This document shows positions 26,077 to 50,200 of a stretch of DNA of 58,941 bases, in pieces (positions within the stretch are counted from its first letter, which is position 1; every line of letters starts with the position of its first letter). This DNA comes from Candidatus Peregrinibacteria bacterium. Its GTDB lineage: Bacteria > Patescibacteriota > Gracilibacteria > UBA1369 > JABINC01. The position numbers were made by a program, and so were the translations under genes. The stretch spans positions 1 through 58,941 of the forward strand of contig JABINC010000018.1 of NCBI GenBank assembly GCA_018697675.1. Direction: 5' to 3'. Below the pieces are notes generated by a model. It ran no database searches. It saw only the letters and a list, made by a program, of their open reading frames with translations, and was not told the origin of the DNA.

Positions 26077-26077
26077 A

Positions 26078-31372: not shown

Positions 31373-33367
31373 ATGTGTGGTATCTTGGGCCTTGTTTCAA
31401 AAGTAAATGCTTCTGTTACTGGCAAAAAAATAAAGCAACTTACAGATCAACTTTTTTTACTTGCAGAGTCGAGGGGAAAAGAGGCGTCTGGTTTCGCTGC
31501 GAGTGAAGGTAAAGAGATATTTATATATAAAACTGCTAAACGTGCATCGACACTGCTCAAGACTAGCAGCTATAAAAAAATACTTACTTCGAATAAAAAT
31601 GGGACATGCATTATTGGGCATTCTCGTTTGGTTACGAATGGAGCTGCGGCTCTGAATGTGAATAATCAGCCTTTCATCAAAGAAGAAATTATAGGAGTGC
31701 ATAATGGTATTATTGTGAACCAAAAAGAGTTATGGGGGAAATATCCTGATGAGAAAAAACAATCTGATTTGGATAGCGAATTGATCCCGACACTTTTAGG
31801 ACGTTTTTTTAAAGAAAATGGAGATATGTCAGGCGCGCTTGAGAAAATGTACTCTGATATCTATGGGATGACTTCTATCGCTCTACTTTTCTCGAATTAC
31901 AATCGTCTACTTCTCGCTACTAATAATGGAGCGCTTTACTATTTACCAAGTAGGGATGGATCTGTGTTTATTTTTTCTTCGGAGAAAATCATGCTCGAAC
32001 AAGCAGTGAAAAAAACAGGTCTTTCAAATTCATTTGATGTGAAAGCAATTGTTCATCTAACTCCTGGACGCGCATGCAGCGTGAATCTTGAAACATTGAA
32101 AATTAAGGATGCGGATTTTGAGAAAAGTGAAAAGCTTGAAAGTTGGAATAAATTAGAAGAAGCATATTCTATAGAAGATATCTCCCCTCCAGATTCGAAA
32201 AAGCATATAGTCTTACCAATGAATGAAGGATTCGATCCTGGATCTGAGTTCCTCGAGTATTTCGAAGGATGCAAAGAGAGGATAAAAAATATGAAAAGAT
32301 GTAAGAAATGTTTATTGCCTGAAACTTTCCCATTTCTAAAATATAATGCAGATGGTATTTGCAATTTTTGTGAGAATTATAAAAAACTTGAGTTCAAAGG
32401 ACCTAGCTCATTCAAAGATGAACTTCAGAAACATAAGAAAAATGATGGGAGCCCTGACTGTATCGTGGCTTTTAGTGGGGGACGGGACAGCTGCTTCGCA
32501 TTGCACTACGTGAAGAACGTACTTGGCATGAATCCACTCGCATACTCATATGATTGGGGGATGATCACTGATCTCGCACGGAGAAATCAAGCTCGATTGT
32601 GTGACAAGTTAGGAGTGGAGCATATCTATATCTCAGCTGATATCCCAAAGAAACGAAAGAATATACAAAAAAATGTTTTAGCATGGTTAAAACGTCCAAA
32701 TTTGGGCACTATTCCGCTTTTTATGGCTGGAGACAAACAATACTTCTACTATGCAAACAAGCTCATGAAAGATTATAAAATCGATGCGCTCATCATGGGG
32801 GATAACATGCTGGAGGCAACTAATTTCAAAGGTGGATTTTGTGGGATCCAACCAGTTTTTGATAGACAAAGAAATTATCATATTCCGCTTAGTGGGAAAC
32901 TAAAGATGCTTGGGTTCTATGGGAAAGAGTATTTGTTGAATCCGAGTTATCTGAATAGGTCGTTGATTGATACTGTGAAAGCATTCTTGTCATACTATGT
33001 GATTCCACATAATTTCATCAATATTTTTGACTACATTGAATGGAAGCAAGAAATGGTTGAAGAAATTCTTTTTGGGCAGTATGATTGGGAAACTTCTCCA
33101 AGTACCGTAACTACATGGCGCATCGGAGATGGGACTGTGGCGTTTTATAATTATATCTATTATATTATTGCTGGTTTCACCGAGAACGATACGTTCCGAA
33201 GTAATCAAATTCGAGAAGGACAGATCACACGCGAAGAAGCTCTCAAAGACATTGCACTTGAAAACAAAGCACAATGGGGTGGCATCAAGTGGTATTTAGA
33301 TACTATTAATGTTGATTTCGAAAAAACCATGCGAACGATTAATAAAATCCCAAAACTTTACAAATAA
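31373..33367 (+). CDS. Fusion of class II glutaminase and N-acetyl-sugar amidotransferase
   Basis: A 664-residue protein. Residues 1 to about 240 are an Ntn-type class II glutamine amidotransferase: MCGILGLV with nucleophilic Cys2, GHSRLVTNGA, GVHNGIIVN and SDLDSE. Near residue 308 a Zn-binding CKKCLLPETFP...CNFC segment starts the second half, followed by the PP-loop SGGRDS near 367, YDWGMITDLARRNQ and IMGDNMLEATNF. The second half is the WbpG/PseA-type amidotransferase that converts a sugar N-acetyl group to acetamidino. Known WbpG proteins receive ammonia from a separate HisH-like glutaminase; here a different glutaminase type is fused on. The GT4 gene starts at the next base after the stop. 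Confidence 0.88.
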   Translation: MCGILGLVSKVNASVTGKKIKQLTDQLFLLAESRGKEASGFAASEGKEIFIYKTAKRASTLLKTSSYKKILTSNKNGTCIIGHSRLVTNGAAALNVNNQPFIKEEIIGVHNGIIVNQKELWGKYPDEKKQSDLDSELIPTLLGRFFKENGDMSGALEKMYSDIYGMTSIALLFSNYNRLLLATNNGALYYLPSRDGSVFIFSSEKIMLEQAVKKTGLSNSFDVKAIVHLTPGRACSVNLETLKIKDADFEKSEKLESWNKLEEAYSIEDISPPDSKKHIVLPMNEGFDPGSEFLEYFEGCKERIKNMKRCKKCLLPETFPFLKYNADGICNFCENYKKLEFKGPSSFKDELQKHKKNDGSPDCIVAFSGGRDSCFALHYVKNVLGMNPLAYSYDWGMITDLARRNQARLCDKLGVEHIYISADIPKKRKNIQKNVLAWLKRPNLGTIPLFMAGDKQYFYYANKLMKDYKIDALIMGDNMLEATNFKGGFCGIQPVFDRQRNYHIPLSGKLKMLGFYGKEYLLNPSYLNRSLIDTVKAFLSYYVIPHNFINIFDYIEWKQEMVEEILFGQYDWETSPSTVTTWRIGDGTVAFYNYIYYIIAGFTENDTFRSNQIREGQITREEALKDIALENKAQWGGIKWYLDTINVDFEKTMRTINKIPKLYK

Positions 33368-34537
33368 ATGAAATTATTTTTCTGTACAAGTTCATATCCC
33401 GCTAAATCAAAAATTAGTATTGGGAGTCTTGGTTCATTCCAAAGAGACTGGGTGCTGCAGCTTATCAAGCATGGCATTGAGGTATTTGTAATTACTCCCG
33501 CACAACCAGGAGACGACTTCGATGAAACTGAGGAGAATCTCCATATCATAAGATATGAATGGGCTGGATCGAAAAAAGGTGCCGAACTTTCTTCTTTGAA
33601 TATTTTTAATCCTAAAGATCTGTATTTTGCTTTCTCAATTTTCTGGAAAGGCACATGGGCGGTTTTGAAACTCGCAAAAAAAGAACGTCCTGACTTTACA
33701 TTTGCACTTTGGGCAGTTCCTTGTGGATTTTTTGCATGGATTTGTAAAAAGATATATAAAACGCCTTATGCTGTTTGGACACTTGGATCTGATATTTGGG
33801 TATATGGACGGAAATTTTATACTCGCCCACTGCTCAAGACTATTTTGAAATCTGCTGACAAGCTTTATTCGGATGGTTTTTTGCTAGGAGAGGAGACTGG
33901 CAAACTCGGAGGTCAGAAATGCGACTTCCTACCATCTACTCAAAAACTCACTACTCAAAATTTGGAGAAAGTTGAGTTGCCTTATATAGATGGAAAGATT
34001 AATTTCCTTTTTATTGGGCGATACCATCACAACAAAGGCCCAGATGTACTTCTAGAAGCTATTAATATTTTGCCAAAAGAAATAGGCGAGAAGTGCCATT
34101 TTCATATGTTCGGTGGAGGAGATTTGGAACCGAAACTACGTGAACAAATACAAGAATATGACTTGAAGAACGTCACACTCAATGGATTTGTTAACACCAC
34201 TGAATGTTCAGCTCTGCTACGCAGTGCTCATTTTTTCATTGTACCTTCTCGTGAAGATAGCATTCCAGTTATTTTGTCTGATGGATTGCAATGCTTCCTC
34301 CCAGTGATTGCAGCACAGGTTGGAGATATGACTAAGTTGTTAAATGACTACAAAGTTGGTTATTCATTTCCAAAAGAAGACGTGAAAATGCTTGCGCAGT
34401 GCATACAAAAGGCTGTAAAAGATGATAAGCAAAGTTTCAAGCCTGAGATTGATCGAATTTTAAATATATTTGATATATCAAAAGCAGTTGATACACTTGC
34501 CGCAGATATCCAATCACTAATCAAACATGAGAGATGA
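33368..34537 (+). CDS. GT4 family glycosyltransferase
   Basis: A 389-residue GT-B fold transferase. The N-terminal half opens KLFFCTSSYPAKSKISIGSLGSFQRDW. The C-terminal half has the GT4 signatures FLFIGRYHHNKGPDVLLEAI near residue 215, MFGGGDLEPKL, GFVNTTECSALLRSA and PSREDSIPVILSDGLQ (the EX7E region). It is cytosolic or membrane-associated and adds one sugar to a lipid-linked glycan. Its ATG is directly adjacent to the upstream stop, and its own stop overlaps the start of the aminotransferase gene by 11 nt. Confidence 0.92.
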   Translation: MKLFFCTSSYPAKSKISIGSLGSFQRDWVLQLIKHGIEVFVITPAQPGDDFDETEENLHIIRYEWAGSKKGAELSSLNIFNPKDLYFAFSIFWKGTWAVLKLAKKERPDFTFALWAVPCGFFAWICKKIYKTPYAVWTLGSDIWVYGRKFYTRPLLKTILKSADKLYSDGFLLGEETGKLGGQKCDFLPSTQKLTTQNLEKVELPYIDGKINFLFIGRYHHNKGPDVLLEAINILPKEIGEKCHFHMFGGGDLEPKLREQIQEYDLKNVTLNGFVNTTECSALLRSAHFFIVPSREDSIPVILSDGLQCFLPVIAAQVGDMTKLLNDYKVGYSFPKEDVKMLAQCIQKAVKDDKQSFKPEIDRILNIFDISKAVDTLAADIQSLIKHER

Positions 34538-35684
34538 TTTCCTAATCTTCGGACAACCACTTATTGAACAGCCTGAAATGGATGAGGTAGTAGCTTCGAT
34601 GAAGGCCTCTTGGCTTGGGACTGGACCAAAGGTCAGAGAATTTGAACAAAGGTTTGCAGCCTACAAAGGAGTGCCAAATGTTGCAGCAGTTAATTCTTGT
34701 ACCGCAGCTCTTCACCTTGCCGCTCTTGCGCTCGAACTTGGCCCTGGTGATGAAGTGATTACAACGGCTATGACATTCTGTGCGACTATTAATTCAATTA
34801 TCTATGTGGGAGCGACTCCAGTACTTGCAGATATTGATCCTGACACTTTTAATATTGATCCTGTAGATATTGAGAGGAAAATCACTGATAAAACGAAAGC
34901 TATTTTGATAGTTCATTTTGCAGGACGTGCATGTGACATGGATGCGATCATGGCTATCGCAGAGAAACATAATTTGAAGGTAATTGAAGATTGTGCTCAT
35001 GCAATTGAAACTGAGTACAAAGGAAAAAAAGCTGGTACATTTGGAGATGTTTCTTGTTTCAGTTTTTATGCTACGAAAAATATCGTCACTGGAGAAGGTG
35101 GGATGCTGATGAGTAATCACAAACCATATATTGATACTGCGAAAATCAAGGCTTTGCATGGACTTAGTGTAGATGCTTGGAAACGTTTTTCTGACGATGG
35201 ATACAAGCACTATTATGTGGAAACCCTCGGATTCAAATACAACATGATGGATCTACAAGCAGCTATAGGTATGCATCAGATAGAAAGAGTTGATCGATAC
35301 TGGACCCGACGGCAAGAAATATGGGGGAAGTACCAGGAAGCATTTAAAGATATGCCTTTTAGAACACCAGCCCCTGATGAAGAAAATACTCGCAATGCTT
35401 ACCATCTTTATACAATTCAAGTCTCAAAAGAAGAATGTGGCGTAGACCGAGATGATTTGCTCGTATTCATGAAGAAAAACAACATTGGAGTTGGAGTGCA
35501 TTATCTTGCTATAGCAGAGCATCCTTTCTATCAAAAAACTTTCAATTGGTCGCTCGAAGATTTCCCACATGCTGTGAAGTATGGCCGGGAAACACTGAGC
35601 CTCCCGCTCTCACCTAAACTGACCGATCAAGACGTCGAAGACGTAATTGAAGTCGTTAAGGGAGCATTTAAGAAAATAACTTGA
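34527..35684 (+). CDS. DegT/DnrJ/EryC1/StrS family aminotransferase
   Basis: A 385-residue PLP enzyme that aminates a keto-sugar or keto-cyclitol. LGTGPKVREFEQRFAAYKGV opens the fold. NSCTAALHLAALAL binds the phosphate, VIEDCAHAI gives the PLP-ring Asp, and CFSFYATKNIVTGEGGML carries the Schiff-base Lys near residue 186. GFKYNMMDLQAAIGMHQIE is conserved. The look is closest to ArnB/perosamine-synthase type sugar aminotransferases. In this operon the acceptor could be a UDP-keto-sugar for the amidotransferase fusion, or a keto-cyclitol from the cyclase. Confidence 0.93.
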   Translation: MRDDFLIFGQPLIEQPEMDEVVASMKASWLGTGPKVREFEQRFAAYKGVPNVAAVNSCTAALHLAALALELGPGDEVITTAMTFCATINSIIYVGATPVLADIDPDTFNIDPVDIERKITDKTKAILIVHFAGRACDMDAIMAIAEKHNLKVIEDCAHAIETEYKGKKAGTFGDVSCFSFYATKNIVTGEGGMLMSNHKPYIDTAKIKALHGLSVDAWKRFSDDGYKHYYVETLGFKYNMMDLQAAIGMHQIERVDRYWTRRQEIWGKYQEAFKDMPFRTPAPDEENTRNAYHLYTIQVSKEECGVDRDDLLVFMKKNNIGVGVHYLAIAEHPFYQKTFNWSLEDFPHAVKYGRETLSLPLSPKLTDQDVEDVIEVVKGAFKKIT

Positions 35685-35692
35685 GACAACCT

Positions 35693-36895
35693 ATGACAAA
35701 TATTCTAATTGCCACAGGTTCATTCAAGGATGTGTATTCTCCGATGGAAGCGTGTGAAATGTTTAAAGGTATTTTGGGTGAGATTCAGCCAGATGCAACG
35801 ATCACTACTATCCCAATGATTGATGGAGGGGAGTATTCGTCAGAAGTTTTGCAAAGCGTTTTTAGATATGAAAAAAAAGTTGTTGTTGAGGTAGTAAATC
35901 CACGTGGAGAAAAAATCACATCACATTATTTAAAAGTGGATGAACAAACTGTATTTATTGCGACTTCGTCAATTTTGAAACTTCCGGATTCTCAAGAGAT
36001 GTATTTAAATCCTTTAAAATTGACTAGTTATGGTTTTGGGCAACTTATATCTCATGCAATTAAGAATGGTTATAAAAAGCTGATACTTGGGCTTGGTGGA
36101 ACTCATACAGTAGATGGTGGAATTGGAATGGCTCAAGCTTTGGGAGTAAAATTTGTAGGGAAAGATGGTGTCGCTCTCGCGCCACTTGAAGGTGACTTTT
36201 TCGCGGGACAAGACATGATAAATATTGGCGGTATGCTTTTGGATAATTTCATTGATTTTGTAGGGGACGTAGAAGCGCTGTGTGATGCAACTGCAAATCT
36301 CATTGAGATGAGGGTACCTACAAATCAAAAAATAAGTTCCAGTTTTGATGCTGAGAGAAATGAGATTGCAGCTACGCTTGAGAATGGTGCATTTAGTTAT
36401 GCAAGCCTACTTGGTATATCTACTGATGATAATTATTTTGGAACCGCAGGAGCCATACTTCTCAGTCTAATTGCTCTTTTTGATCCTGAGACTATGCTCG
36501 GAAGTAAATATTTTGCAGAAAAATTTGAGTTAGCAAAACATATTGCTGAAACTGATCTCGTAATCACTGGGGAAGGGAAGATTGACAATAGCCTACTTGG
36601 CAAATCCCCAATCGGTGTAAGCAGACTTGCAAAAAAATATGGGAAAAAAGTTGCTTATGTCGTTGGAACTGTAGAGGAAGATTTGAAAAAATATTTTTCA
36701 GCTGGCTCATATTTAGCTAAGGAGGTTCCGGAAGATTTTTCCAATAATGGGGTTACAGAAATAATAAGCGGGCATCAATTTTATGATATTCATGATTTGC
36801 CCCAGGATTACATGAAAAGGATCGAGTTTTTTCAGGAAAATAATCCAGGTGTTTTTGAGCAAGGATTGGTTGATTTTTTCAGCAAATACTCATAG
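35693..36895 (+). CDS. Glycerate-kinase family protein
   Basis: A 400-residue protein of the GarK/GlxK family (PF02595). FKDVYSPMEACEMFKGIL is the N-terminal signature. MIDGGEYSSEVLQ, ILGLGGTHTVDGGIGMAQALGVKF and DLVITGEGKIDNSLLGKSPIGVSRLAKKYGK follow. The family phosphorylates D-glycerate, usually to 2-phosphoglycerate. Inside a glycan operon it might phosphorylate glycerate for a phosphoglycerate-decorated glycan, or have moved to another polyol. A TTG at 35681 overlaps the upstream TGA; the ATG at 35693 is the more usual start and fits the conserved N terminus. Confidence 0.85.
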   Translation: MTNILIATGSFKDVYSPMEACEMFKGILGEIQPDATITTIPMIDGGEYSSEVLQSVFRYEKKVVVEVVNPRGEKITSHYLKVDEQTVFIATSSILKLPDSQEMYLNPLKLTSYGFGQLISHAIKNGYKKLILGLGGTHTVDGGIGMAQALGVKFVGKDGVALAPLEGDFFAGQDMINIGGMLLDNFIDFVGDVEALCDATANLIEMRVPTNQKISSSFDAERNEIAATLENGAFSYASLLGISTDDNYFGTAGAILLSLIALFDPETMLGSKYFAEKFELAKHIAETDLVITGEGKIDNSLLGKSPIGVSRLAKKYGKKVAYVVGTVEEDLKKYFSAGSYLAKEVPEDFSNNGVTEIISGHQFYDIHDLPQDYMKRIEFFQENNPGVFEQGLVDFFSKYS

Positions 36896-36930
36896 ACTGC
36901 GTGGGCCTTAGCTATTTAAGTTTAAACTTC

Positions 36931-37674
36931 ATGAAAGTAGCCTTTTTACTCGCGGGAATGAGTCGTCGAATGGGTGAGCTCACAAAGGATAAGCCAAAGT
37001 CTTTGGTTGAATTATCTGGCGCACCTCTTTTGGGGCACTTACTTGAGAGATTTGTTGCAAATGGCATCACTGATTTTGTTCCAGTTATTGGATATAAAAA
37101 AGAGGGGATTTTAGATTTCATTAAAGAAAAATATGGAGGCCAAGTTACAGTCACTCCTGCAGTAAATGAAAAATACAATGAAACGAATAATATGTATTCA
37201 CTTTATTGTGCTGCGAGTCTACTTCGTGGAAAACCATTTATTCTTTGCAATGGTGACACTTTACTTAATAAAAATATTATTAAATCTTTGAATGAACTCC
37301 CTGAAGCTGAATCAGCAATTGCATTGGATATTGAAAATAAAGACATTTATATAGATTCCCCCGGAACAATAATAAAAGATGGGAGGGTTTTTGATATTGG
37401 ACGACATGTATCTGCAGAAGAAAATGGAGGATATGCAATTGGATTATATAAATTTAATGCAGAACTATCTGAGGCCTTCTTCACAGAGATTGAAAAAATG
37501 CTGGAGAAAGGGCAATATAATGCTGGATTTCATGACCCACTTATGACGCTTTTCGCTAAATACCCTATGAGTGCGCATAGTACGGCCGGACTGTCTTGGA
37601 CTGACCTAGATACCCCTGAAGATATTCCAAAAATAGAAGCTGTACTTTCACAAATTATATCTGAAGAAAATTAA
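36931..37674 (+). CDS. Sugar/alcohol-phosphate nucleotidyltransferase
   Basis: A 247-residue NTP-transferase. KVAFLLAGMSRRMGELTKDKPKSLVEL is the nucleotide-binding opening (G-x-x-R-x-G...KPK). VNEKYNETNNMYSLYCA resembles LicC-type cytidylyltransferases. FILCNGDTLLNKNII contains the metal-binding Asp, and SWTDLDTPEDI closes the active site with the second Asp. A CTP-dependent enzyme is likely because a CDP-alcohol phosphotransferase is encoded in the same operon, but base specificity is not readable. A GTG at 36901 opens the frame; the family start is the ATG at 36931. The SDR gene follows 2 nt after the stop. Confidence 0.87.
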   Translation: MKVAFLLAGMSRRMGELTKDKPKSLVELSGAPLLGHLLERFVANGITDFVPVIGYKKEGILDFIKEKYGGQVTVTPAVNEKYNETNNMYSLYCAASLLRGKPFILCNGDTLLNKNIIKSLNELPEAESAIALDIENKDIYIDSPGTIIKDGRVFDIGRHVSAEENGGYAIGLYKFNAELSEAFFTEIEKMLEKGQYNAGFHDPLMTLFAKYPMSAHSTAGLSWTDLDTPEDIPKIEAVLSQIISEEN

Positions 37675-37676
37675 TT

Positions 37677-38426
37677 ATGAATAAAGACTTGGCAAACAAA
37701 ACAGTTCTCATCACTGGAACATCACGCGGGATTGGCAAAGCAATTGCACAGGCATTTCTTGAACAGGGAACAAAAGTTATTGCACTTTATCGAGAAGAAA
37801 AACCTGAATTTGAAGGGAGCCATGAAGTGATATTTTTGAAAGCTGATATTCAGGATTTGGATACGATACGCACATGGCTTAGTGAGTTTGAAAACGATGG
37901 TGGCAAGATTGATGTGCTTGTAAACAATGCTGGGGTTTATTCAAAATGTGATCTGCTCAATGTTACAGAAGAAGATTTTGATAGAACTATGAGTATTAAT
38001 CTGAAAGGAACTGTTTTCTTATCACAACTCATCGCGATTCACATGAAAAAAAACGGTAGTGGCTCAATAGTGAATGCGGCTTCTTTTGCAGCACAACTTG
38101 CCTCTCGAGGATTTGGTATCTATGCGGCGACGAAGACGGCAATTATATCACTCACAAAAAGCATGGCAGCAGAGTTTGCTCCGTATGGTATACGCGTAAA
38201 TGCATTTAGTCCTGGAGTTACACCTACTCGCATGACACAGCCTGCAATTGATGCAAATGAAAAAGGTATGTTGGATACAATTGCTTTGCACAGATTTGGA
38301 GGAGCTGATGAAGTTGCAAATGCTGTTCTCTTCCTTGCATCTGATGCTTCATCTTATATCACTGGAACGAACCTTGATGTAAGTGGCGGTAAATTTGCAA
38401 ATCAAAATCCAGGTGCATCTTGGTAA
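37677..38426 (+). CDS. Short-chain dehydrogenase/reductase
   Basis: A 249-residue classical SDR. The cofactor site TGTSRGIGKAIAQAF is near residues 14-28, NNAGVYSKCD near 85, the catalytic Ser lies in VNAASFAAQLASRG, and YAATKTAIISL is the YxxxK motif. It ends with the usual ITGTNLDVSGGKF. It probably interconverts an alcohol and ketone in the pathway encoded by its neighbours. Its TAA (38424-38426) is in the same frame as the next gene, which stays open right back to this stop. Confidence 0.93.
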   Translation: MNKDLANKTVLITGTSRGIGKAIAQAFLEQGTKVIALYREEKPEFEGSHEVIFLKADIQDLDTIRTWLSEFENDGGKIDVLVNNAGVYSKCDLLNVTEEDFDRTMSINLKGTVFLSQLIAIHMKKNGSGSIVNAASFAAQLASRGFGIYAATKTAIISLTKSMAAEFAPYGIRVNAFSPGVTPTRMTQPAIDANEKGMLDTIALHRFGGADEVANAVLFLASDASSYITGTNLDVSGGKFANQNPGASW

Positions 38427-38516
38427 CCATTATTAAACCCCTCTCAAATAGATAGTTTACAATTACAATACGAATCTAAAAATACGCTTAATTTTCATAT
38501 AAGTGATAATCATGAT

Positions 38517-39581
38517 TTGGAATGGATTGGGAAATTCGATGGGGGAAAATACAAACGGTTTTTCGTGGTTTTTGACGAAAATGTATATGACATCTGGGGA
38601 AAGAAAATTGTCTCACAACTTGAAAAGCATGGAAAAGAAATTTTTATATTCAAAGTAAAACCTGAAGAAAGAAGTAAATCACTGGAATTCTACCCAGAGA
38701 TTTTAGAATTTTTTGAAGACCATGCATGTAGCAGATATGACCTTGTAATCGGAATTGGTGGCGGGATCATTTTGGATCTTGTGAGTTTTTTCTGTTCGAC
38801 ATATATGAGAGGTCTTCCTCTCTATGCAATTCCTACAACCCTAATTGGACAAGTTGACGCAATTACTGCAGGTAAGACATGTCTCAATACTGGTAAAGCG
38901 AAAAATGTTCTTGGAACTTTTTATTACCCACTTGAGGTTTATAATAATATTCATATTCTCAAAACAAATCAGCCTTATTTTGAACGCCAGGGTTTATCTG
39001 AAATTTTTAAATATGGCCTACTTGCATCGCGTGAATTACTTGAAGTGCTCGATAGATATATGAAGGGCAAATCTGAAGAAGATTTGAAAGAGGTAATTAA
39101 ACTGACTATTCAAGCCAGAGGTGTGATTCGCAAAAAAGATCCTCTCGCGAGCAATCTTGGTCATACTTTCGGACATGCACTTGAAAAGATGTCTGGGCAC
39201 GCGCTCCTCCACGGAGATGCAATTACCGTTGGGACCGTGATGGCGTTTCAATTCGCCGTTGAGAAAGGATTGATGACTCAGGAAAAGGCCTCTGAACTTA
39301 CGAAGAAAATGAAAGAATATAGATTGAATGTATATCTTGAAAAAAATCTTGATCTGGATGCAATGATTGAATACATGTTGCATGATAAGAAATCGTCTGT
39401 AGATATGATAAACCTTGTGCTGCTCGAAGATATCGAAAGGCCGTATGAAAAAGATGGCAGTCTGTTTTATGGGGTCTCTCCTAGTGAAATGAAGGAATTT
39501 TTGGAGAGATTTATTAAAAATTATGAATATATGAAGGATGGCTGCTGGGAATTCATTCGAACTGATGATATTAATTATTAA
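38517..39581 (+). CDS. Sugar-phosphate cyclase (3-dehydroquinate-synthase-like)
   Basis: A 354-residue member of the DHQ synthase superfamily. The NAD site reads IGIGGGIILDLVSFFCSTYMRG, followed by PTTLIGQVDAITAGKTCLN and KNVLGTFYYP. The metal site has GLSEIFKYGLL, NLGHTFGHALE and LLHGDAITVG. The stretch before NLGHT is shorter than in housekeeping DHQ synthase, and HGEA has become HGDA, so it is a divergent branch like those making cyclitols. The only standard start is the TTG at 38517. The frame is open to 38427 and the sequence LNFHIS-x-NHDLEWIG before that TTG looks like the family's first strand. An ATA at 38448 is a possible true start. Confidence 0.85.
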   Translation: MEWIGKFDGGKYKRFFVVFDENVYDIWGKKIVSQLEKHGKEIFIFKVKPEERSKSLEFYPEILEFFEDHACSRYDLVIGIGGGIILDLVSFFCSTYMRGLPLYAIPTTLIGQVDAITAGKTCLNTGKAKNVLGTFYYPLEVYNNIHILKTNQPYFERQGLSEIFKYGLLASRELLEVLDRYMKGKSEEDLKEVIKLTIQARGVIRKKDPLASNLGHTFGHALEKMSGHALLHGDAITVGTVMAFQFAVEKGLMTQEKASELTKKMKEYRLNVYLEKNLDLDAMIEYMLHDKKSSVDMINLVLLEDIERPYEKDGSLFYGVSPSEMKEFLERFIKNYEYMKDGCWEFIRTDDINY

Positions 39582-39593
39582 TCTGAAATAATT

Positions 39594-40043
39594 ATGGGAA
39601 TACAAAGTATGAATCACGTGAGTTTCACTGTAAGTGACCTCGGTCAATCAGTTGCTTTTTATACAGATGTCCTTGGGCTTGAACTCATGGATAGGGCTGG
39701 TAGAGATGCTGAGTTTTCTGAAGCTGTAACTGGAGTACCTGGTGCAGAATTAGAGATAGCATATATCAAAGGTCCTGGAGATTGTAATCTCGAATTAATT
39801 CAGTATCTAACTCCCCAAGGAGAAAAGCTTCCAACGAGTATGCATCATGTGGGAAGAGCCCATATTTGTTTCGTTGTTACTGAATTTAAGCAGGAGCTTG
39901 CACGCTTAAGAGAGCTTGGTGTAAACTTCGTGAGCAAAGATAATTGCATTGTTCCTGCTGGCCCAAATAAGGGTAAAGGAGTTGTATATTTCCACGATCC
40001 AGATGGATATACTATTGAATTCTTTTCGGAAGAAATCTTATAA
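39594..40043 (+). CDS. VOC-superfamily (glyoxalase/epimerase-like) protein
   Basis: A 149-residue vicinal-oxygen-chelate protein with both beta-alpha-beta-beta-beta modules. The four expected metal ligands are visible: His in MNHVSFTV, Glu in CNLELIQY, His in RAHICFVV and Glu in YTIEFFSE. VOC enzymes include methylmalonyl-CoA epimerase, glyoxalase I, dioxygenases and the C7-cyclitol epimerase CetB of cetoniacytone synthesis. Directly behind a sugar-phosphate cyclase, a cyclitol epimerase role is attractive but unproven. Confidence 0.88.
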   Translation: MGIQSMNHVSFTVSDLGQSVAFYTDVLGLELMDRAGRDAEFSEAVTGVPGAELEIAYIKGPGDCNLELIQYLTPQGEKLPTSMHHVGRAHICFVVTEFKQELARLRELGVNFVSKDNCIVPAGPNKGKGVVYFHDPDGYTIEFFSEEIL

Positions 40044-40068
40044 AAAATTACTAATTAAATATTAAAAA

Positions 40069-41115
40069 ATGAAAAAAATCAGGGTAGGTATAAATGGTTT
40101 TGGACGAATTGGAAGGGCGATCTTCCGTATAAACCAGCAAAAACAATTTTTTGAAGTAGTTGCGATCAATGACATAAATCCTGAGATTAAAAATATGGCA
40201 TATCTACTACGATATGATACAACTTATGGACGGTTCGATGGACATGTTGATCATACAGACACTCATCTTGTAATAAATGATGAAAAAGTACGTGTTTACC
40301 ATCAACCAAAAATCACTGATGTACCATGGGATGATCTAGATATCGATATAGTTATTGATTCTTCTGGTATTAAGGCGAATTTAGATCTTATGCTGGCGGA
40401 TGATTCTGGTGTGAAGAACTACATTGTTACAAATGCACCACAGGATTATATGGATCGCATCCAGACAATTATCTTTGGAGTAAATGATGAAGAATGTGCC
40501 CCTGATAAATATAAAATATTTTCTTCAAGTATCTGCGACACTATTTCAATGTCACCAATACTTAAATTGATCCAAGAAACTCATAAAATTGAGAGTGGCT
40601 TTTTGACTACTCTGCATCCTTGGCTCGCTTATCAAAACCTCGTTGATGGACCATCTAAATCATGGTCACAACCTGGTGATATTTATTCCAATTATTCGCT
40701 CGGACGCGCCTCTACACAAGTGCTTATCCCTAAATCAACTTCAGCTGTTATAGCTGCTGAGGCTGTTTACCCTGGACTATGTGACCGGTTGCAGTCTTTC
40801 TCATATAGAGTCCCTACAGCGATCGTTTCTAGCGCCGTGCTTATCCTCCAACTTGATAAAGAAATTGAAAAAGATGAAATAATGAAGAGATTCGAAGAAT
40901 ATGAAAGAACACAAGAATACAATGTTATAAAAAATAGCATGGAGCCACTTACTTCTATTGATTATGCTGGCGAAGAAGCTTCTGTTATCATTGATCAACG
41001 TTGGACTAAGGTTGAGAATAAAACACATTTGAAGATGGTGTATTGGTATGACAATGAATGGGGATATAGCTGCCGAGCAGTTGATCTAGTTCGAAAAATA
41101 GCAGAAAGCTACTAA
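40069..41115 (+). CDS. Divergent glyceraldehyde-3-phosphate dehydrogenase paralogue
   Basis: A 348-residue GAPDH-fold protein. The NAD domain opens VGINGFGRIGRAIFRI and has AINDIN and YDTTYGRF. The usual active-site block SASCTTNC reads SSSICDTIS; the catalytic Cys (residue 156) is kept but its neighbours differ. The catalytic His (residue 183) is kept in TTLHPW, which replaces TTVHAYT. The C terminus WYDNEWGYSCRAVDLV is normal. It is likely an oxidoreductase on a phosphorylated aldehyde other than, or besides, the glycolytic one. It lies inside the surface-glycan operon with a glycerate kinase, so a role in glycerate or cyclitol metabolism is plausible. Confidence 0.85.
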   Translation: MKKIRVGINGFGRIGRAIFRINQQKQFFEVVAINDINPEIKNMAYLLRYDTTYGRFDGHVDHTDTHLVINDEKVRVYHQPKITDVPWDDLDIDIVIDSSGIKANLDLMLADDSGVKNYIVTNAPQDYMDRIQTIIFGVNDEECAPDKYKIFSSSICDTISMSPILKLIQETHKIESGFLTTLHPWLAYQNLVDGPSKSWSQPGDIYSNYSLGRASTQVLIPKSTSAVIAAEAVYPGLCDRLQSFSYRVPTAIVSSAVLILQLDKEIEKDEIMKRFEEYERTQEYNVIKNSMEPLTSIDYAGEEASVIIDQRWTKVENKTHLKMVYWYDNEWGYSCRAVDLVRKIAESY

Positions 41116-41124
41116 TTGATTTTT

Positions 41125-42222
41125 ATGTCAGAAATTTGTGTCCTTTTCGGAACAAATGCCGTCGCTTACAATATTGCGAGTGCATTTAGTAAATCTGATT
41201 ACAACGTATTTACTTTTATTCCAAAAGGAGAGAGTAAAGTTTTCTGTCATAGTAAATTTTGGGGAGATGTGCATAAATCACGCTATAAGTTTGATGACGA
41301 TATGCTCGCCAATGATATTATTGAGCACGTAAAAAAGGGGAATTTATCTGGCAAAATTCTAACTTTCTTGGCCAATGATCAAGCTGTGTATTTTTGGATA
41401 AAGTATCAAGACAAACTGTCGAAGTATTTGACTGTGCAAATAGATAATATTGAAACTTTTTACAATAAAAATCTCTTTTTCAAGAAACTTGGCGATGCTG
41501 AATTTTGTCCTAAAACGTGGGAAGTGTCTGAAGTTGGATCTTTCCCGTGCATTGTAAAACCTGCCTACAAAGACTTTGACAATAAATTCTACAATAAGTT
41601 CAAAAGTAAGGTGCGAATTGCTGAGGGGATTGATGAGCTGGATCAATTTCGAGATTTTGATAAGGGGGAACTTGTTTGCCAGGAAGTGCTTGATTTTGAC
41701 CTTGGAAATGAATTTAGTTTTTGGGGATATAGAGGTCTGGATGGAGAGATCGTCTCATTTGTAGGACAGCATATGAATAAATATCCTGATAAAACTGGAC
41801 GAATTTCGCATACTAAATTGGTGGAAAATTCTGGCATTCAAAAAATTGGGAGAACTATTATGAATAATTTGAATTATGTCGGGATTTTGGATGTTCAAAT
41901 TATTTTTGATAAGAATTCCAAGAGTTATAAGGTTATCGAAGCAAACCCTCGTCTTTGGTGCAGTCATGAGGTGCTACTGATGAATGGAATTAATTTACTG
42001 CAAATCTGTGCCAATAATTTCTATGAAGTGAAAAGCGCTATGCCAACCGCAGAACTCAAAGGAAAAGAATGGTTTAGCTCACTGTATAGCATTGAACACA
42101 AACGCCCTCTGGCCAAAAACACTGAGTTTTACGCTCTAAGTTCGGATAACTTTCTTACGAAAGTGTGGATTGGACTTTATTTAAAAGCAAAATATCTGTA
42201 CTATCGCATACGTAAATTTTAG
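41125..42222 (+). CDS. ATP-grasp ligase
   Basis: A 365-residue protein with the ATP-grasp fold. FPCIVKPAYKDF gives the ATP-binding Lys near residue 148, ELVCQEVLDFDLGNEFSFWGYRG the middle strand pair, and NYVGILDVQIIFDKNS...YKVIEANPRLW the metal ligands (Asp, Glu, Asn). Such enzymes join a carboxylate to an amine, often an amino acid, through an acyl phosphate. It follows the GAPDH-like gene by 9 nt. It could attach an amino acid to a sugar, uronate or cyclitol. A TTG at 41116 precedes the ATG at 41125. Confidence 0.85.
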   Translation: MSEICVLFGTNAVAYNIASAFSKSDYNVFTFIPKGESKVFCHSKFWGDVHKSRYKFDDDMLANDIIEHVKKGNLSGKILTFLANDQAVYFWIKYQDKLSKYLTVQIDNIETFYNKNLFFKKLGDAEFCPKTWEVSEVGSFPCIVKPAYKDFDNKFYNKFKSKVRIAEGIDELDQFRDFDKGELVCQEVLDFDLGNEFSFWGYRGLDGEIVSFVGQHMNKYPDKTGRISHTKLVENSGIQKIGRTIMNNLNYVGILDVQIIFDKNSKSYKVIEANPRLWCSHEVLLMNGINLLQICANNFYEVKSAMPTAELKGKEWFSSLYSIEHKRPLAKNTEFYALSSDNFLTKVWIGLYLKAKYLYYRIRKF

Positions 42223-42239
42223 AAGCTATTTTTTTCTAT

Positions 42240-42956
42240 ATGAATGATTCTACGCGAGGGTGCCCTACGAATGTAGCAGCTGGAACAGCTTATAAATTGG
42301 CGAAGAAGAAAAACAATGGAATCGTTTATGGAATCTATTGGGATCTCGGATTTGTGATGGCTCATGTCTTCAAGTTTCTGCGGTTCTCACCAAATTTTGT
42401 TAGTTTTCTGTCATTAGTTTTCTATGTCATCATGGGATATCTATTTCTCAATTCTTTTTTTGTTTGGGGAGGCATATGTTTCTTCCTTGGGATTTTGATG
42501 GATTGCACTGATGGGAAGCTTGCACGTATGACCAATAATACATCGAGGCTCGGAGTGTGGCTGGATTACAATTTTGATAACGTTCGACCACTCTTCCTCT
42601 ATCCACCAATTGGGATCGCACTATTCGGCAGTACTGGTGACATCAGATTTGTTCTATTGGCATTTGTTGCAGTCGTTGCGACCTTGGTTTTTGTTATTGT
42701 TAGTATGGTGTGGGATGGATTTGATTTTGCTAAGTCCGTCAAAGAAAAACATGTGGGAAAATCTAAATGGCATCCAATTTTGAAACAATTTTACTTTTAT
42801 GAAGGAATCGAACCTTTGGCAGTTATCCTACTTGCAGCCCTTAGTCTGATTAATTGGTATCTTATAATTTGGGCATTCGGGATGACTGCAATGTATTTAC
42901 TCATGGCCTTCTACGGAGGATTTGTTATTAACAGAAAAGATAAAAATGAAAATTAA
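42240..42956 (+). CDS. CDP-alcohol phosphotransferase family membrane protein
   Basis: A 238-residue integral membrane enzyme. The full family motif DG-x2-AR-x8-G-x3-D-x3-D is present from residue 91 (DGKLAR, then G-VWL-D-YNF-D). Five or six membrane helices follow the usual pattern. The enzyme moves an alcohol phosphate from a CDP-alcohol to a second alcohol, as in phospholipid or di-inositol-phosphate synthesis. Its natural partner is the nucleotidyltransferase at 36931. Its stop overlaps the next gene by 11 nt. Confidence 0.92.
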   Translation: MNDSTRGCPTNVAAGTAYKLAKKKNNGIVYGIYWDLGFVMAHVFKFLRFSPNFVSFLSLVFYVIMGYLFLNSFFVWGGICFFLGILMDCTDGKLARMTNNTSRLGVWLDYNFDNVRPLFLYPPIGIALFGSTGDIRFVLLAFVAVVATLVFVIVSMVWDGFDFAKSVKEKHVGKSKWHPILKQFYFYEGIEPLAVILLAALSLINWYLIIWAFGMTAMYLLMAFYGGFVINRKDKNEN

Positions 42957-43869
42957 TAAGTGGTTCTCATATATACTCGCTTTTTTACTCATTGGAGTTG
43001 TTTTTTATTTTTCAAAAGACCAATGGCAGTATTTCTCTAAGATCAAAGATGTATCATTGTATGGATTTTGTTTTGTATCTTTGTATTTTATATTGAGCCA
43101 AATCATCCAAGCTTTTCAATTGAAGTGGTATATGAAGATTTTTAAAATTGATCTCACAAACCATGAGGCTTTTGGCCTGATTTGTTTACAAGCTTTTGGA
43201 AACTATCTTCCTCTGAGCGGAGGGGTTGTCTCGAACATGGCTTATCTGAAAGCAAAACGGGAACTTCCTGTTGCGAGGTATTTCAGTTATTTACTCGGTG
43301 ATACTATCCTGAAGTTCTTTATTTACGGATTACTTGGCATCATCCTACTACTAAGCGGAAGCTTTATCTTTCATATGTTTGAAATAAATTGGATGGTTAT
43401 TCTATTTTTAGTTTGCCTTATCCTCTCATCTGCACTCTGTATTTTTTTCCCGACAGTAGAGAGGAAATCCGAACATAAAGTTATTGCATGGCTTCACCAT
43501 ATGCACGAAAGCTGGGCACTACTCCGAAAGAACAAAAATCTGATGTTAAAAAATACACTGACCCATATCTTGGTTTTGGTTCTAATTGCTTTACAGTTCT
43601 CAGTACTTTTTGATGAAATAGGGATTAAAATGAGCTTCTCTGCAATATTAATACTGACGATAATTACAAATATCATCAAAATCACTTCGTTATTTCCAGG
43701 CAACTTAGGTCTCAGAGAAACCGTCTCTGGAGGCGTAACAAAGATGTTCGGATTTAATTTTGCCAGTGGCTTCGCCGCATCTTTACTCGGTAGGGTGATT
43801 ACTATGATTTGGATTTTTCTCTTTGGAATTTACTTCTCGTTCTCGTTCAGTCGAGTACTACGAAAATGA
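42946..43869 (+). CDS. LPG-synthase-type membrane protein (possible lipid flippase)
   Basis: A 307-residue polytopic protein of the lysylphosphatidylglycerol-synthase membrane-domain family (PF03706, AglD-like). About eight hydrophobic segments are visible. QAFGNYLPLSGGVVSNMAYLK near residue 84 and the conserved FPGNLGLRETVSGG near 255 mark the family. Members without the soluble aminoacyl-transfer domain, as here, are thought to flip or translocate lipid-linked sugars. Start is the ATG at 42946, inside the end of the CDP-alcohol transferase gene. Its last 40 bp overlap the convergent GT2 gene. Confidence 0.83.
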   Translation: MKINKWFSYILAFLLIGVVFYFSKDQWQYFSKIKDVSLYGFCFVSLYFILSQIIQAFQLKWYMKIFKIDLTNHEAFGLICLQAFGNYLPLSGGVVSNMAYLKAKRELPVARYFSYLLGDTILKFFIYGLLGIILLLSGSFIFHMFEINWMVILFLVCLILSSALCIFFPTVERKSEHKVIAWLHHMHESWALLRKNKNLMLKNTLTHILVLVLIALQFSVLFDEIGIKMSFSAILILTIITNIIKITSLFPGNLGLRETVSGGVTKMFGFNFASGFAASLLGRVITMIWIFLFGIYFSFSFSRVLRK

Positions 43870-46238: not shown

Positions 46239-47291
46239 ATGTTTAAAAAATTAAGAAAAAACCTAGTAACGATACTAATTATCGTAAATATTATCTTTAC
46301 TATTCTTTTTACGTTGTGGTTTTTTGTTGAAGTACCAGTGAAAAAGTTTCACGATACAGAGATTACAAGTCACAATATTTTTGAAGCCGCTTATTATGCT
46401 ACAAGAGATCGTCGTTGGAATGCAGCTCTAGAAAAAATAAAGGTCATCGAAGATGCCGAAGAGAAAAAAACAGAATTGCATAATTATATCGAGGATATCC
46501 CCGTTACTCAGTGGTTCAACCTGCTCTACCCTTATCAAAATAAGGCCTTTGGAGAATTGAGCACTCTCTATAAGGATGATGAGCAATGGCCAGAGCTTAG
46601 AGAACTTTCTCAGAAATACATAGAAATTGATCCACGAAATGCAAAATATTATTACCTAATAGGATTAAGCTACTTTCATGAAGGAGGGTTAGAAAAAGCG
46701 GAAACTGCATACTATGAAACTTTGGAAATCGATGCCACACATGTAGGGACTTTGAAACAGTTGGGCTCTTTATTGATTTCAAAAGGCCAGTACTACAAGA
46801 TAAGACGAATTTTGGAACCATATGTTGTGAGTAGCTCATATCTCACTAATAAAATGTGTTTTTTCTGGGGGGAGACTGGATTCACTGGTACTCAGAAAAA
46901 ATGTCAGACCATTCAACTTGATGATAACCAAAGAAAAACTGTAACGCATTGGCCTGGAGAAATACTTAATAATATCAACCAATTAAAGTATGTCCGTATC
47001 GACCCTCCACAAGGCACCTTTAAAGTAGAAAGTGTTAAAATCAATATTCGTAATGCACCTGTCCTAAATTACACTACCTTTTCTAACTGGAATCGTTCTG
47101 CTGACGTAAAACACCTTGAAGCGAATGAATTTACAACAGTCGGAAATGACCCATACATCTACACTATACTCAAAAGTGGAATTGCCGTCGAAGAAATCGA
47201 ATCTGTTGAATTTGATCTCACTTATACAGCTGTAGGCACGGACAAAGAAATTATCCAATTTATTCAAATGATTGATACGAAAAATTTATAA
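46239..47291 (+). CDS. Membrane-anchored TPR protein
   Basis: A 350-residue protein with one N-terminal membrane helix (about residues 9-30, TILIIVNIIFTILFTLWFFV) and an extracytoplasmic body. Residues 110-190 have TPR-like helices (YYYLIGLSYFHEGGLEKAETAYYETLEID). The last 150 residues are beta-rich with two Cys and no recognised family. Its TAA overlaps the ATG of the CotH-like gene (TAATG), so the two are translationally coupled and probably act together at the cell surface. A small hairpin (TGAGAT/ATCTCA) lies in its leader. Confidence 0.8.
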   Translation: MFKKLRKNLVTILIIVNIIFTILFTLWFFVEVPVKKFHDTEITSHNIFEAAYYATRDRRWNAALEKIKVIEDAEEKKTELHNYIEDIPVTQWFNLLYPYQNKAFGELSTLYKDDEQWPELRELSQKYIEIDPRNAKYYYLIGLSYFHEGGLEKAETAYYETLEIDATHVGTLKQLGSLLISKGQYYKIRRILEPYVVSSSYLTNKMCFFWGETGFTGTQKKCQTIQLDDNQRKTVTHWPGEILNNINQLKYVRIDPPQGTFKVESVKINIRNAPVLNYTTFSNWNRSADVKHLEANEFTTVGNDPYIYTILKSGIAVEEIESVEFDLTYTAVGTDKEIIQFIQMIDTKNL

Positions 47292-50200
47292 TGAAAAAAT
47301 ACTCTCGATTTAAAATAGGAATTTTGATTACCTTATCGCTTATCAATATATCGATAGTGATTGTATTTATCATGAGTTTTTCTTACACAATTGCAAATGA
47401 AAGGAAATGCTGTGAAGGGCTCACAAGTCTGTTGCAAGCAAAAGAACTGGAGTATCGAAATACACGTAAGCACTTCCCATTGATGCTGTATAAAATTGGT
47501 AAAGCTTTTTCAAAACCATCTATAAAAAAAGTTAAAAAAACTCTCGATAGTAACCAAATATCTTACTTGGAAGTAGAGATCGAATCAGATTCACTAAACC
47601 TTTTGCATAGCGATATGCCTATAAGTGGCAAGCAATATGTACCAATTCGAATGGAGTCAGGGGGTGATTGGATAGATGCAGAATTAAAATACAGAGGGGA
47701 CTCTTATTACCACTGGGGATTTGAGAAGAAGTCTTATACTATAAAACGTGAAAATGGAGCCAAGCTCAACCTTATTAATCCAAAGAACTCCAACTTTATC
47801 GCAGACCGTGTTGCAATGACTGTCGCAAATGATTTCGGATTACTGAATCCAAAATATGACTGGATTGGGCTTTTTGTTAATGATGAATTCAAAGGAGTCT
47901 TCTCCTTGGTTGAAGGCTTGGATGATAAATTTGCTACGGCAAATGACTTGGACTTCATCCTAGAAGGTGAAAGACTCTCGTTTTCACTAACAACGGGGCA
48001 ACCATTGTTTTTTGATACAAAAAAATGGAGCCTTGCAGCTGGACAAATGGTAGATGATAAACAGTTTTCAAATTTTCTCAAAGCTATCAATACGAAAGAC
48101 TACAAAGCTTTTTTTGGAATGGTTGACCTTGATTATATGGCGAGATTTTATACTTGGGCCAGTCTGATTAAAAACCATAATTACGACAGTACTCATAATT
48201 GGCGACTTGGGCACAAACAAGGAACTTTTTATCCAACTGCATGGGACCCTGTTGCATGGCTTTTTGTAGGAGAAGGTATTGAGGAAGTTAACTCACCGGT
48301 CTCATCTCTACTTCGAAGAAACTCATACTTTAATCAACTTTTTGTAGAAACACTATGGCATCAAATAAATTCTGATCTGTCGGAAAAAATAATGACTTAT
48401 ATTGATGAGAATCAAAACCAATTAAAGGATTTATTACAATATGATGATTTCAAAGGAGGTGCTTATCACAATCCAAAACGTATGCGCTTCCCGCAAGAGA
48501 CAGGGCAAATTTTAGAATCTATGGATGAATTGAAAACTACTGCGCAAAAAAGAATTGATACTCTCAAAACAAAACTTCAAAACAATACCCTGTTCTATAA
48601 AGTGCGAGACAACTATCTGTACATTGAATACAATGGTATTGCAGGGTCATATTTAGATTCAATATACAATGACCAAATATTTGAGGGTTTCGGTGCAGTT
48701 GAGACATTTAATGACTCTCAGTACGAAACTTTGCCAACCTTTTTAGCTAGCAAACGTTTACTAGTAGGTGGAAGAGTAATCGCTGGTGCTTATGCAACAT
48801 ACTGCCCCTTAGTTTACCGAATACCAATTGACTCAAACCGTCCTTTAGATATTGTCTTTAGACATTCGCTTACTGATGAAACTATGTCACCAGAGGTGAA
48901 AGATTTTGAAATTTCTGATTGCCACATGAATTTTGATATTCCTCAAATACATTCCACATCAACAGCCCCATCTAAAAATCCAATCCTAAAATTAGACTTT
49001 AAGCAAATAGGTGTCGCTGAGTTCTTTGACTTCAATGAAAAATCTAAAGAAAAAATACAAATTAAAATTGATGATTTAGATACAAAAGGTAAGTTCGAAA
49101 AGGATAAATACTCTGACCTTATTACAATGAAATTTGATGACTATTATTTGAATAATGATGAGTTCTCCTTGATTGAGCGGCTACATGAAAGTGAGAATTT
49201 TGTCCGCGCACAGGCAGAGGCAAAGAGCTTGCATCTACCTACTCCATCAGCACATCTCGTCTCTGTCGAAGCCAATAACTTCCACATAGGAGATTACTAT
49301 TTGATCGAAGCTCCTAGTAAAGCATTTATAGAAAAAAATAAACTCACTTCTGACACAGATATATATCGTAAAACTGGATTCGACACCTTATCTGTTGAGA
49401 ATTGGGACAAGATAACTACGGATCCACGTGTCGACGAAGATAGTAAAGATATCCTTGCTGACTTACTTGAAAAAGCTCAGGAACAAAAAGATCTTGAGAA
49501 GTACATAGATACAGACAATTTTACAAATTTCTATAATTTCATAAAACATACTGGAAATGAGAATCTGGACTACTTAATTTATTACGATAATACACAAGGT
49601 AAATACCTATTCATTCCTTATTATTATTCTTATTATAAATCTGATAATTTCGAAATCCGAGATCCATTAATTATGAATATCTTTAATTATATGGAAGGAT
49701 CAGGCAAGGTTGCCGTTCTAGGAAAATCCAATTTGGGTCCTCTAGCTAAGTATCAAAAAGGAGATCAAATAATCCTTAAAAAGGATATAAATATAAAGGA
49801 TACTGTGACAATCCCCTCAAATCTGGAACTAATTATAAAGCCAGGAGTGCAGATTGAAATTGCAAAAAAGGAATCAATTATTTCTTATGGGAAGATTATC
49901 GCTGAAGGAACGAAAAATAATCCTATTGTCATAAAGTCCAAAGGGAAGAAGCCATTTGGTGTTTTTGCTTTAATTGGAGAAGGGGCTAATGACAGTGTCA
50001 TTAAATTTGTTAACGTGAAAAATGGAAGTGAGACTTTCTATAACAATGTTTATATTTCTGGGATGTTCTCTGCTTATCATGTCGGAAATATAACTGTCGC
50101 AAACTCTAAATTTGAAGGCTCTCAATCTGATGATGGGCTTAACATTAAATATGCAACTGCGACTATTGTAGATTCGGTATTTGAAAATAATTCTGCAGAT

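Follow-up and report, generated by a model that had tools for sequence, protein, structure and literature searches.

A 58,941-nt contig from a Candidatus Peregrinibacteria bacterium (GenBank assembly GCA_018697675.1, contig JABINC010000018.1; hereafter the window) carries a gene cassette centered on a divergent sugar-phosphate cyclase (SPC) and a paralogue of glyceraldehyde-3-phosphate dehydrogenase (GAPDH), together with a kinase, a nucleotidyltransferase (NTase), a short-chain dehydrogenase/reductase (SDR), a vicinal oxygen chelate (VOC) protein, an ATP-grasp ligase and a CDP-alcohol phosphotransferase. Judged from sequence comparisons, the cassette is real and distributed widely but sparsely; its cyclase represents a new clade, and a GAPDH paralogue is dedicated to it. 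The chances are about even that it is a horizontally spread surface-glycan cassette, whose enzymes would make a carbocycle from a phosphorylated sugar, activate it with CDP and transfer it as a phosphodiester. A more specific version is tentative: a new cyclase activity and a repurposed GAPDH-like oxidoreductase may lead to an undescribed carbocyclic hydroxy acid, CDP-activated and phosphodiester-linked in bacterial and archaeal surface glycans.

When a 63-residue active-site stretch of the cyclase was compared with 84,980 species genomes, there were eight matches at 67-76% identity, the next being at 50% or less. These homologues come from Woesebacteria (L025), Pacearchaeota (L027), Nitrospinia (L028), Woesearchaeota (L029), Gemmatimonadaceae (L030), Solobacterium (L032), Epsilonproteobacteria (L033) and Gammaproteobacteria (L034); because the loci were gathered through cyclase matches, their ascertainment is one-sided. 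The kinase, NTase, SDR, cyclase and VOC genes, usually with the GAPDH paralogue, recur in six loci. The window has the order GarK-type kinase, NTase, SDR, SPC, VOC, GAPDH, ATP-grasp, CDP-alcohol phosphotransferase; Solobacterium has GAPDH-GarK-NTase-SDR-SPC-VOC, and the epsilonproteobacterium GarK, a fused NTase and SDR, SPC, VOC and GAPDH, followed at a distance of two genes by a TagF-like protein. A kinase of the MOFRL type appears in Woesebacteria (NTase-MOFRL-SDR-SPC-VOC, plus a divergent GAPDH-CDP-alcohol phosphotransferase pair), in Pacearchaeota (CDP-alcohol phosphotransferase-NTase-MOFRL-SDR-SPC-VOC, then the contig end) and in Woesearchaeota (SPC-VOC-MOFRL-SDR-NTase-GAPDH). Recurrence of six genes together in unrelated genomes excludes chance grouping. 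The remaining loci have HIT-SPC-VOC-GAPDH and a flippase-like homologue in Nitrospinia, GAPDH near SPC-VOC-SDR in Gemmatimonadaceae, and SDR-SPC-GAPDH in the gammaproteobacterium. Cyclase and GAPDH paralogue are thus the constant pair (the latter in all eight testable loci), with VOC in eight of nine loci and kinase plus NTase in six. At E 1e-5 the ATP-grasp protein has no homologue in any other cassette, and no description of this gene combination was found in the open-access literature.

Two of these loci have features of their own. In Nitrospinia, a HIT-domain protein (L028 2325-2786) overlaps the cyclase start, and kinase and NTase were not seen there. In the gammaproteobacterium (L034 6737-18804), the cyclase and GAPDH-like gene lie beside a nonribosomal peptide synthetase, a TauD-type oxygenase, an adenylating enzyme and a MATE exporter; a natural product with the same carbocycle is possible in this region.

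To our knowledge, sugar-phosphate cyclases of known product represent a handful of activities, forming 3-dehydroquinate (DHQ), aminoDHQ, 2-deoxy-scyllo-inosose (DOI), 2-epi-5-epi-valiolone (EEV), 2-epi-valiolone (EV) or desmethyl-4-deoxygadusol (DDG); the corresponding synthases are abbreviated DHQS, DOIS, EEVS and DDGS. The window cyclase has TIGR01357 (aroB) as its best NCBIfam match, at 245.6 bits against a cut-off of 305. A second family member in the same genome, on contig C65 beside a 3-deoxy-D-arabino-heptulosonate 7-phosphate (DAHP) synthase, scores 374.6 bits, well over that cut-off; with this separate aroB in the genome, the window cyclase is not the housekeeping enzyme. In a maximum-likelihood tree that took in DHQS, EEVS (including ValA), DOIS (including BtrC) and EboD, the nine cyclases are split off from the rest by a branch of length 1.65 with support 100/100, in a tree that does not resolve how they relate to the other groups. 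EEVS sequences lie together elsewhere (98/94), and the cyclase is outside the EEVS+EboD branch (100/99).

Alignment points the same way. In all nine cyclases the 7-8 residues directly before the N-x-G-H-T motif are missing, a stretch covering positions E260 and R264 of the Aspergillus nidulans DHQ synthase, which we take to lie near the carboxylate end of the substrate. E260 is shared by each of the EEVS, DOIS and EboD sequences in the comparison, and R264 in 71 of 71 next-best DHQS-like proteins; the EEVS region “NLWEHxLxR..DFGHSFSP” is absent from the cyclase family. Other parts of the site are retained: E191, H245, H261, K149, N159, R127, N242 and H249 are invariant in the nine, and the three metal ligands and phosphate-site Lys/Asn/Arg/His place the proteins in the sugar-phosphate cyclase superfamily. 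The AlphaFold2 model (pLDDT 89.3) matches DHQS, DOIS, EEVS and DDGS structures alike (Foldseek probability 1.00). The active site of this clade departs from those of all sugar-phosphate cyclase types compared here.

DAHP synthase, whether class I or class II, is missing from three hosts, G413 (98% complete, the only one of them with a completeness figure), G749 and G751, as is any second member of the aroB family; transketolase is present in G413 and G751. The Woesearchaeota (L029) genome is among these hosts, and it too encodes a transketolase beside the cyclase family member. DAHP is therefore not the substrate in these hosts, and DHQ synthesis is excluded there. The preliminary description had called the cyclase divergent, and had named its firm grouping with housekeeping AroB, in a genome with a full shikimate pathway but no other aroB, as the finding that would count against the proposed pathway; what was found instead is a separate aroB, a separate clade, an active-site deletion and hosts without DAHP synthase, and by these sequence characters the window cyclase is not AroB. 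Placement in an EEVS or C7-cyclitol clade is not supported by the tree or the active-site comparison.

Other assignments were tried and rejected: housekeeping AroB, on the grounds just given; 2-deoxy-scyllo-inosose synthase, since the cyclase is not in the BtrC clade and lacks the SxKQ motif; EboD, by the tree; and the AroB-related putative phospholyases of TIGR04425 (180.3 bits, cut-off 400). The gammaproteobacterial genome has a further cyclase (L124 9602-10735, contig C55 of G755) that is TIGR04425-like (307 bits, same cut-off) and lies in an O-antigen-type cluster; it is of another type, outside the window cyclase family. No further family member was found in 281 genomes of the G413 class and no relative in viral contigs; in a plasmid collection there was no close relative (best 31-36%), and likewise none of the ATP-grasp protein. 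The window cyclase also has an unusual start: its reading frame begins immediately behind the stop codon of the SDR gene, and no ATG, GTG or TTG is found near 38445, where homologues begin. The first in-frame standard start, TTG at 38517, would cost about 25-29 homologue-aligned residues. The candidate causes are a start codon of non-standard type, a change further upstream and an error in the sequence.

The GAPDH paralogue is the third GAPDH-like gene of its genome, the two true GAPDHs being on contig C59, and forms a separate clade (100/100), unlike the characterized enzymes in the comparison; among 380 genomes of the phylum, the only two that carry it are also the only two that carry the cyclase. 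Its catalytic pair, Cys149 and His176 of GAPDH, is kept (C156 and H183, invariant in eight of eight paralogues), while T150 is replaced by D, T179 by L and position 181 by Y, again in all eight. In GAPDH, T150, T179 and D/T181 bind the substrate phosphate and inorganic phosphate; with these residues changed, the paralogue probably oxidizes an aldehyde other than glyceraldehyde 3-phosphate, or acts in reverse. In the VOC protein, H8, E67, H90 and E142 are assigned to a glyoxalase-type metal site and are conserved in complete homologues. SDR orthologues are present in L025, L027, L030, L032 and L033, and a different SDR in L029 and L034.

The activation and transfer steps are notable for interchangeable parts. 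The kinase is of the GarK type in three loci and of the DUF4147-MOFRL type in three, mutually unrelated families that both belong to the glycerate-2-kinase families; TIGR00045 scores for the former are over the cut-off of 168.45 in the epsilonproteobacterium (201.1) as in the window, and under it in Solobacterium (150). The transferase is a CDP-alcohol phosphotransferase in the window, L025 and L027, and a TagF-like PF04464 protein in L033; the window protein carries the full D-x2-DG-x2-AR-x8-G-x3-D-x3-D motif (consensus spacing x8-9): DCTDGKLARMTNNTSRLGVWLDYNFD. That both slots have, independently, been refilled by an enzyme of equal chemistry suggests a kinase that acts on glycerate or a similar compound, and a transfer step that carries the phosphate over along with the activated compound. 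The nearest solved relatives of the NTase are the phosphocholine cytidylyltransferase 1jyk, glucose-1-phosphate cytidylyltransferase and IMPCT (4jd0), and it is predicted to use CTP. In L033 (8094-9608), a single protein of 504 residues comprises both NTase and SDR. Activation with CDP fits what is known elsewhere: the COG1213-type enzyme CpgD makes CDP-glycerate, with D-2-phosphoglycerate preferred (PMC12275187), and CDP-alditols are made by NTase and SDR pairs (PMC10918830). A CDP-activated, phosphodiester-transferred product is thus supported, and the case for cytidylyl activation, followed by the phosphodiester transfer proposed at the outset, is strengthened by the swapped kinases and transferases of the homologous clusters.

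A route can be proposed on this basis. The cyclase would oxidize a sugar phosphate other than DAHP, eliminate phosphate and close the ring; the VOC protein would epimerize beside the ring ketone; and SDR and GAPDH-like dehydrogenase would adjust ketone, alcohol and aldehyde groups, the latter enzyme probably yielding a carboxylate, so that the product would resemble a hydroxy acid. The glycerate-2-kinase-type kinase would phosphorylate this product, the NTase would form CDP-X, and the CDP-alcohol phosphotransferase (elsewhere the TagF-like protein) would place X-phosphate on a glycan or lipid. The route from cyclase to CDP-X transfer, step order included, is largely inferred; what the sequences themselves establish is gene content, synteny, new clades, active-site changes and two kinds of replacement. 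Its phosphodiester logic is well supported and cyclitol chemistry is likely; from the earlier proposal of a nucleotide-activated cyclitol transferred as a phosphodiester, these parts can be kept, while the EEVS-type label is not supported. A cyclase clade with so divergent an active site, accompanied throughout by its own GAPDH paralogue and in many loci by kinase, cytidylyltransferase and phosphotransferase as well, suggests that surface glycans of both bacteria and archaea involve carbocycle chemistry of a new kind. Nearly all steps would be carried out by soluble enzymes, making the pathway directly testable in vitro.

Several points weigh against this route. A tertiary hydroxy acid would be an unusual kinase substrate, and the kinases may just produce 2-phosphoglycerate; CDP would then carry glycerate, and the cyclase would serve some other product. 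In the stretches retrieved for L028, L030 and L034, cyclase and GAPDH are present but kinase and NTase are not. For most pairs of cassette proteins, pairwise distances show no significant correlation in a mirror-tree test, and so give no support for strict co-inheritance; CTP use, for its part, is read from relatives of the NTase. The chief competing explanation, somewhat unlikely but to be taken seriously, is a division of labor: kinase, NTase and transferase would form glycerate 2-phosphate and pass it on by way of CDP-glycerate, and cyclase, VOC, SDR and GAPDH would supply another unit of the same glycan, unrelated to the first. The CDP-glycerate alternative raised in the preliminary description has gained from the finding of two glycerate-2-kinase families, from the CpgD precedent (PMC12275187), and from the glycerate-2-phosphate of the Paenibacillus alvei S-layer glycan, for which a TagF-like domain is the presumed transferase (PMC2943079; compare the PF04464 protein of L033). 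A single pathway, with the cyclase product as kinase substrate, is nevertheless favored over it: 2-phosphoglycerate is a glycolytic intermediate that needs no dedicated kinase, L033 encodes NTase and cassette SDR as one fusion protein, and carboxylate-activating enzymes (the ATP-grasp protein of the window, the adenylation domains of L034) lie beside some cassettes. The cyclase is also present in six of six loci with kinase and NTase, though these were found through the cyclase. None of these reasons is proof. The Caulobacter ceramide diphosphoglycerate pathway of CpgD resembles the cassette in its predicted COG1213-like cytidylyltransferase acting on a phospho-hydroxy acid, but no cyclase, VOC or GAPDH paralogue is described there, and its product is a sphingolipid headgroup rather than part of a glycan. 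CDP-alditol pathways (CDP-6-D-glucitol in Campylobacter jejuni HS:5; TagF-like or CDP-alcohol transferases) share the NTase-SDR pairing and phosphodiester transfer; the polyol here apparently comes from a sugar-phosphate cyclase, however, and the HS:5 NTase is of another family, PF01128.

An EEVS-type C7-cyclitol or aminocyclitol pathway, as in the acarbose, validamycin and cetoniacytone clusters, would account for cyclase, VOC, SDR, kinase and NTase together, with a DegT aminotransferase nearby, but is quite improbable: the cyclase is of another clade and has the active-site deletion, the kinase is glycerate-kinase-type, a GAPDH-like enzyme is present, a phosphodiester transferase replaces the pseudoglycosyltransferase, DegT is not conserved in the cassette, and the NTase is nearest to CTP enzymes while AcbR prefers GTP (PMC9200736). 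Very improbable is a diverged DHQ synthase providing quinate- or shikimate-like units from DAHP; shared fold, retained metal and phosphate-site residues and the TIGR01357 match agree with it, whereas the loss of R264 and E260 in nine of nine, the separate clade, and hosts either without DAHP synthase or with a separate aroB do not. The IPCT/DIPPS model of di-myo-inositol phosphate synthesis (cut-off 580 bits) gives weak matches to the NTase, at 66.4 bits, and to the CDP-alcohol protein, at 25.3 bits, but no inositol-1-phosphate synthase was found in the window genome or G413; an inositol-phosphate phosphodiester pathway is thus extremely improbable, and is rejected for the window genome. The mycosporine pathway (DDGS, O-methyltransferase, ATP-grasp) shares a cyclase and, in the window only, an ATP-grasp ligase; the cassette has no O-methyltransferase and its cyclase is not in the EEVS+EboD branch, DDGS having been compared by structure search only.

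The window genome (1.46 Mb, 94.6% complete) is that of a small, ultra-reduced bacterium. G413, of the same phylum, has the cassette on contig 5 (93,130 bp), and the same cassette is on MGFR01000005.1 of Candidatus Woesebacteria RBG_13_46_13. All genes earlier named for the window run were recovered in Pfam and NCBIfam profile searches, in the place and order given and on one strand (Table 1), with intergenic gaps mostly under 40 bp. Neighboring glycosyltransferases, a Wzt-type ABC transporter and a UDP-sugar dehydrogenase mark this as a surface-glycan locus; a glutamine amidotransferase-type protein is also nearby.

Table 1. Features of the cassette region (positions in the whole window; domain calls from Pfam/NCBIfam profiles)
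Feature	Position	Strand	Basis
DegT/PseC-like aminotransferase	34527-35684	+	PF01041 420 bits; TIGR03588 356.7 bits, under cut-off 423.5
Glycerate-2-kinase-family kinase, GarK type	35693-36895	+	PF02595; TIGR00045 184.4 bits, cut-off 168.45
LicC/IMPCT-like NTase, predicted cytidylyltransferase	36931-37674	+	nearest solved relatives
SDR oxidoreductase, predicted ketone/alcohol step on cyclized product	37677-38426	+	PF13561
SPC, own clade	38430-39581 (open frame)	+	PF01761+PF24621
VOC-superfamily metal isomerase/epimerase (predicted)	39594-40043	+	PF00903
GAPDH-like dehydrogenase, cassette-specific	40069-41115	+	252.9 bits, GAPDH cut-off 367.2
ATP-grasp carboxylate ligase, accessory, window only	41125-42222	+	weak PF02786
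CDP-alcohol phosphotransferase, predicted final phosphodiester-forming step	42240-42956	+	PF01066
LPG_synthase_TM/flippase-like membrane protein	42946-43869	+	PF03706, TIGR00374

The DegT gene, a neighbor that most cassettes lack, is probably not part of the conserved cassette. Two hosts that are not related to each other have the same set of FdtA-like, DegT and methyltransferase genes next to the cassette (L025 5973-8396, L033 15725-18011), an arrangement typical of dTDP-amino-sugar pathways. The “aminocyclitol” first suggested is not supported by any evidence.

Three other window proteins join several distinct parts. One (31373-33367) combines a glutamine amidotransferase domain with a following WbpG-type sugar amidotransferase-like stretch; another (26006-29296) has a methyltransferase and two GT2 domains linked by a repeated, coiled-coil-like EKDEIMxSLNLKVVEQVEVI stretch; and a large protein (47291-50620) joins a CotH kinase domain to a C-terminal beta-helix.

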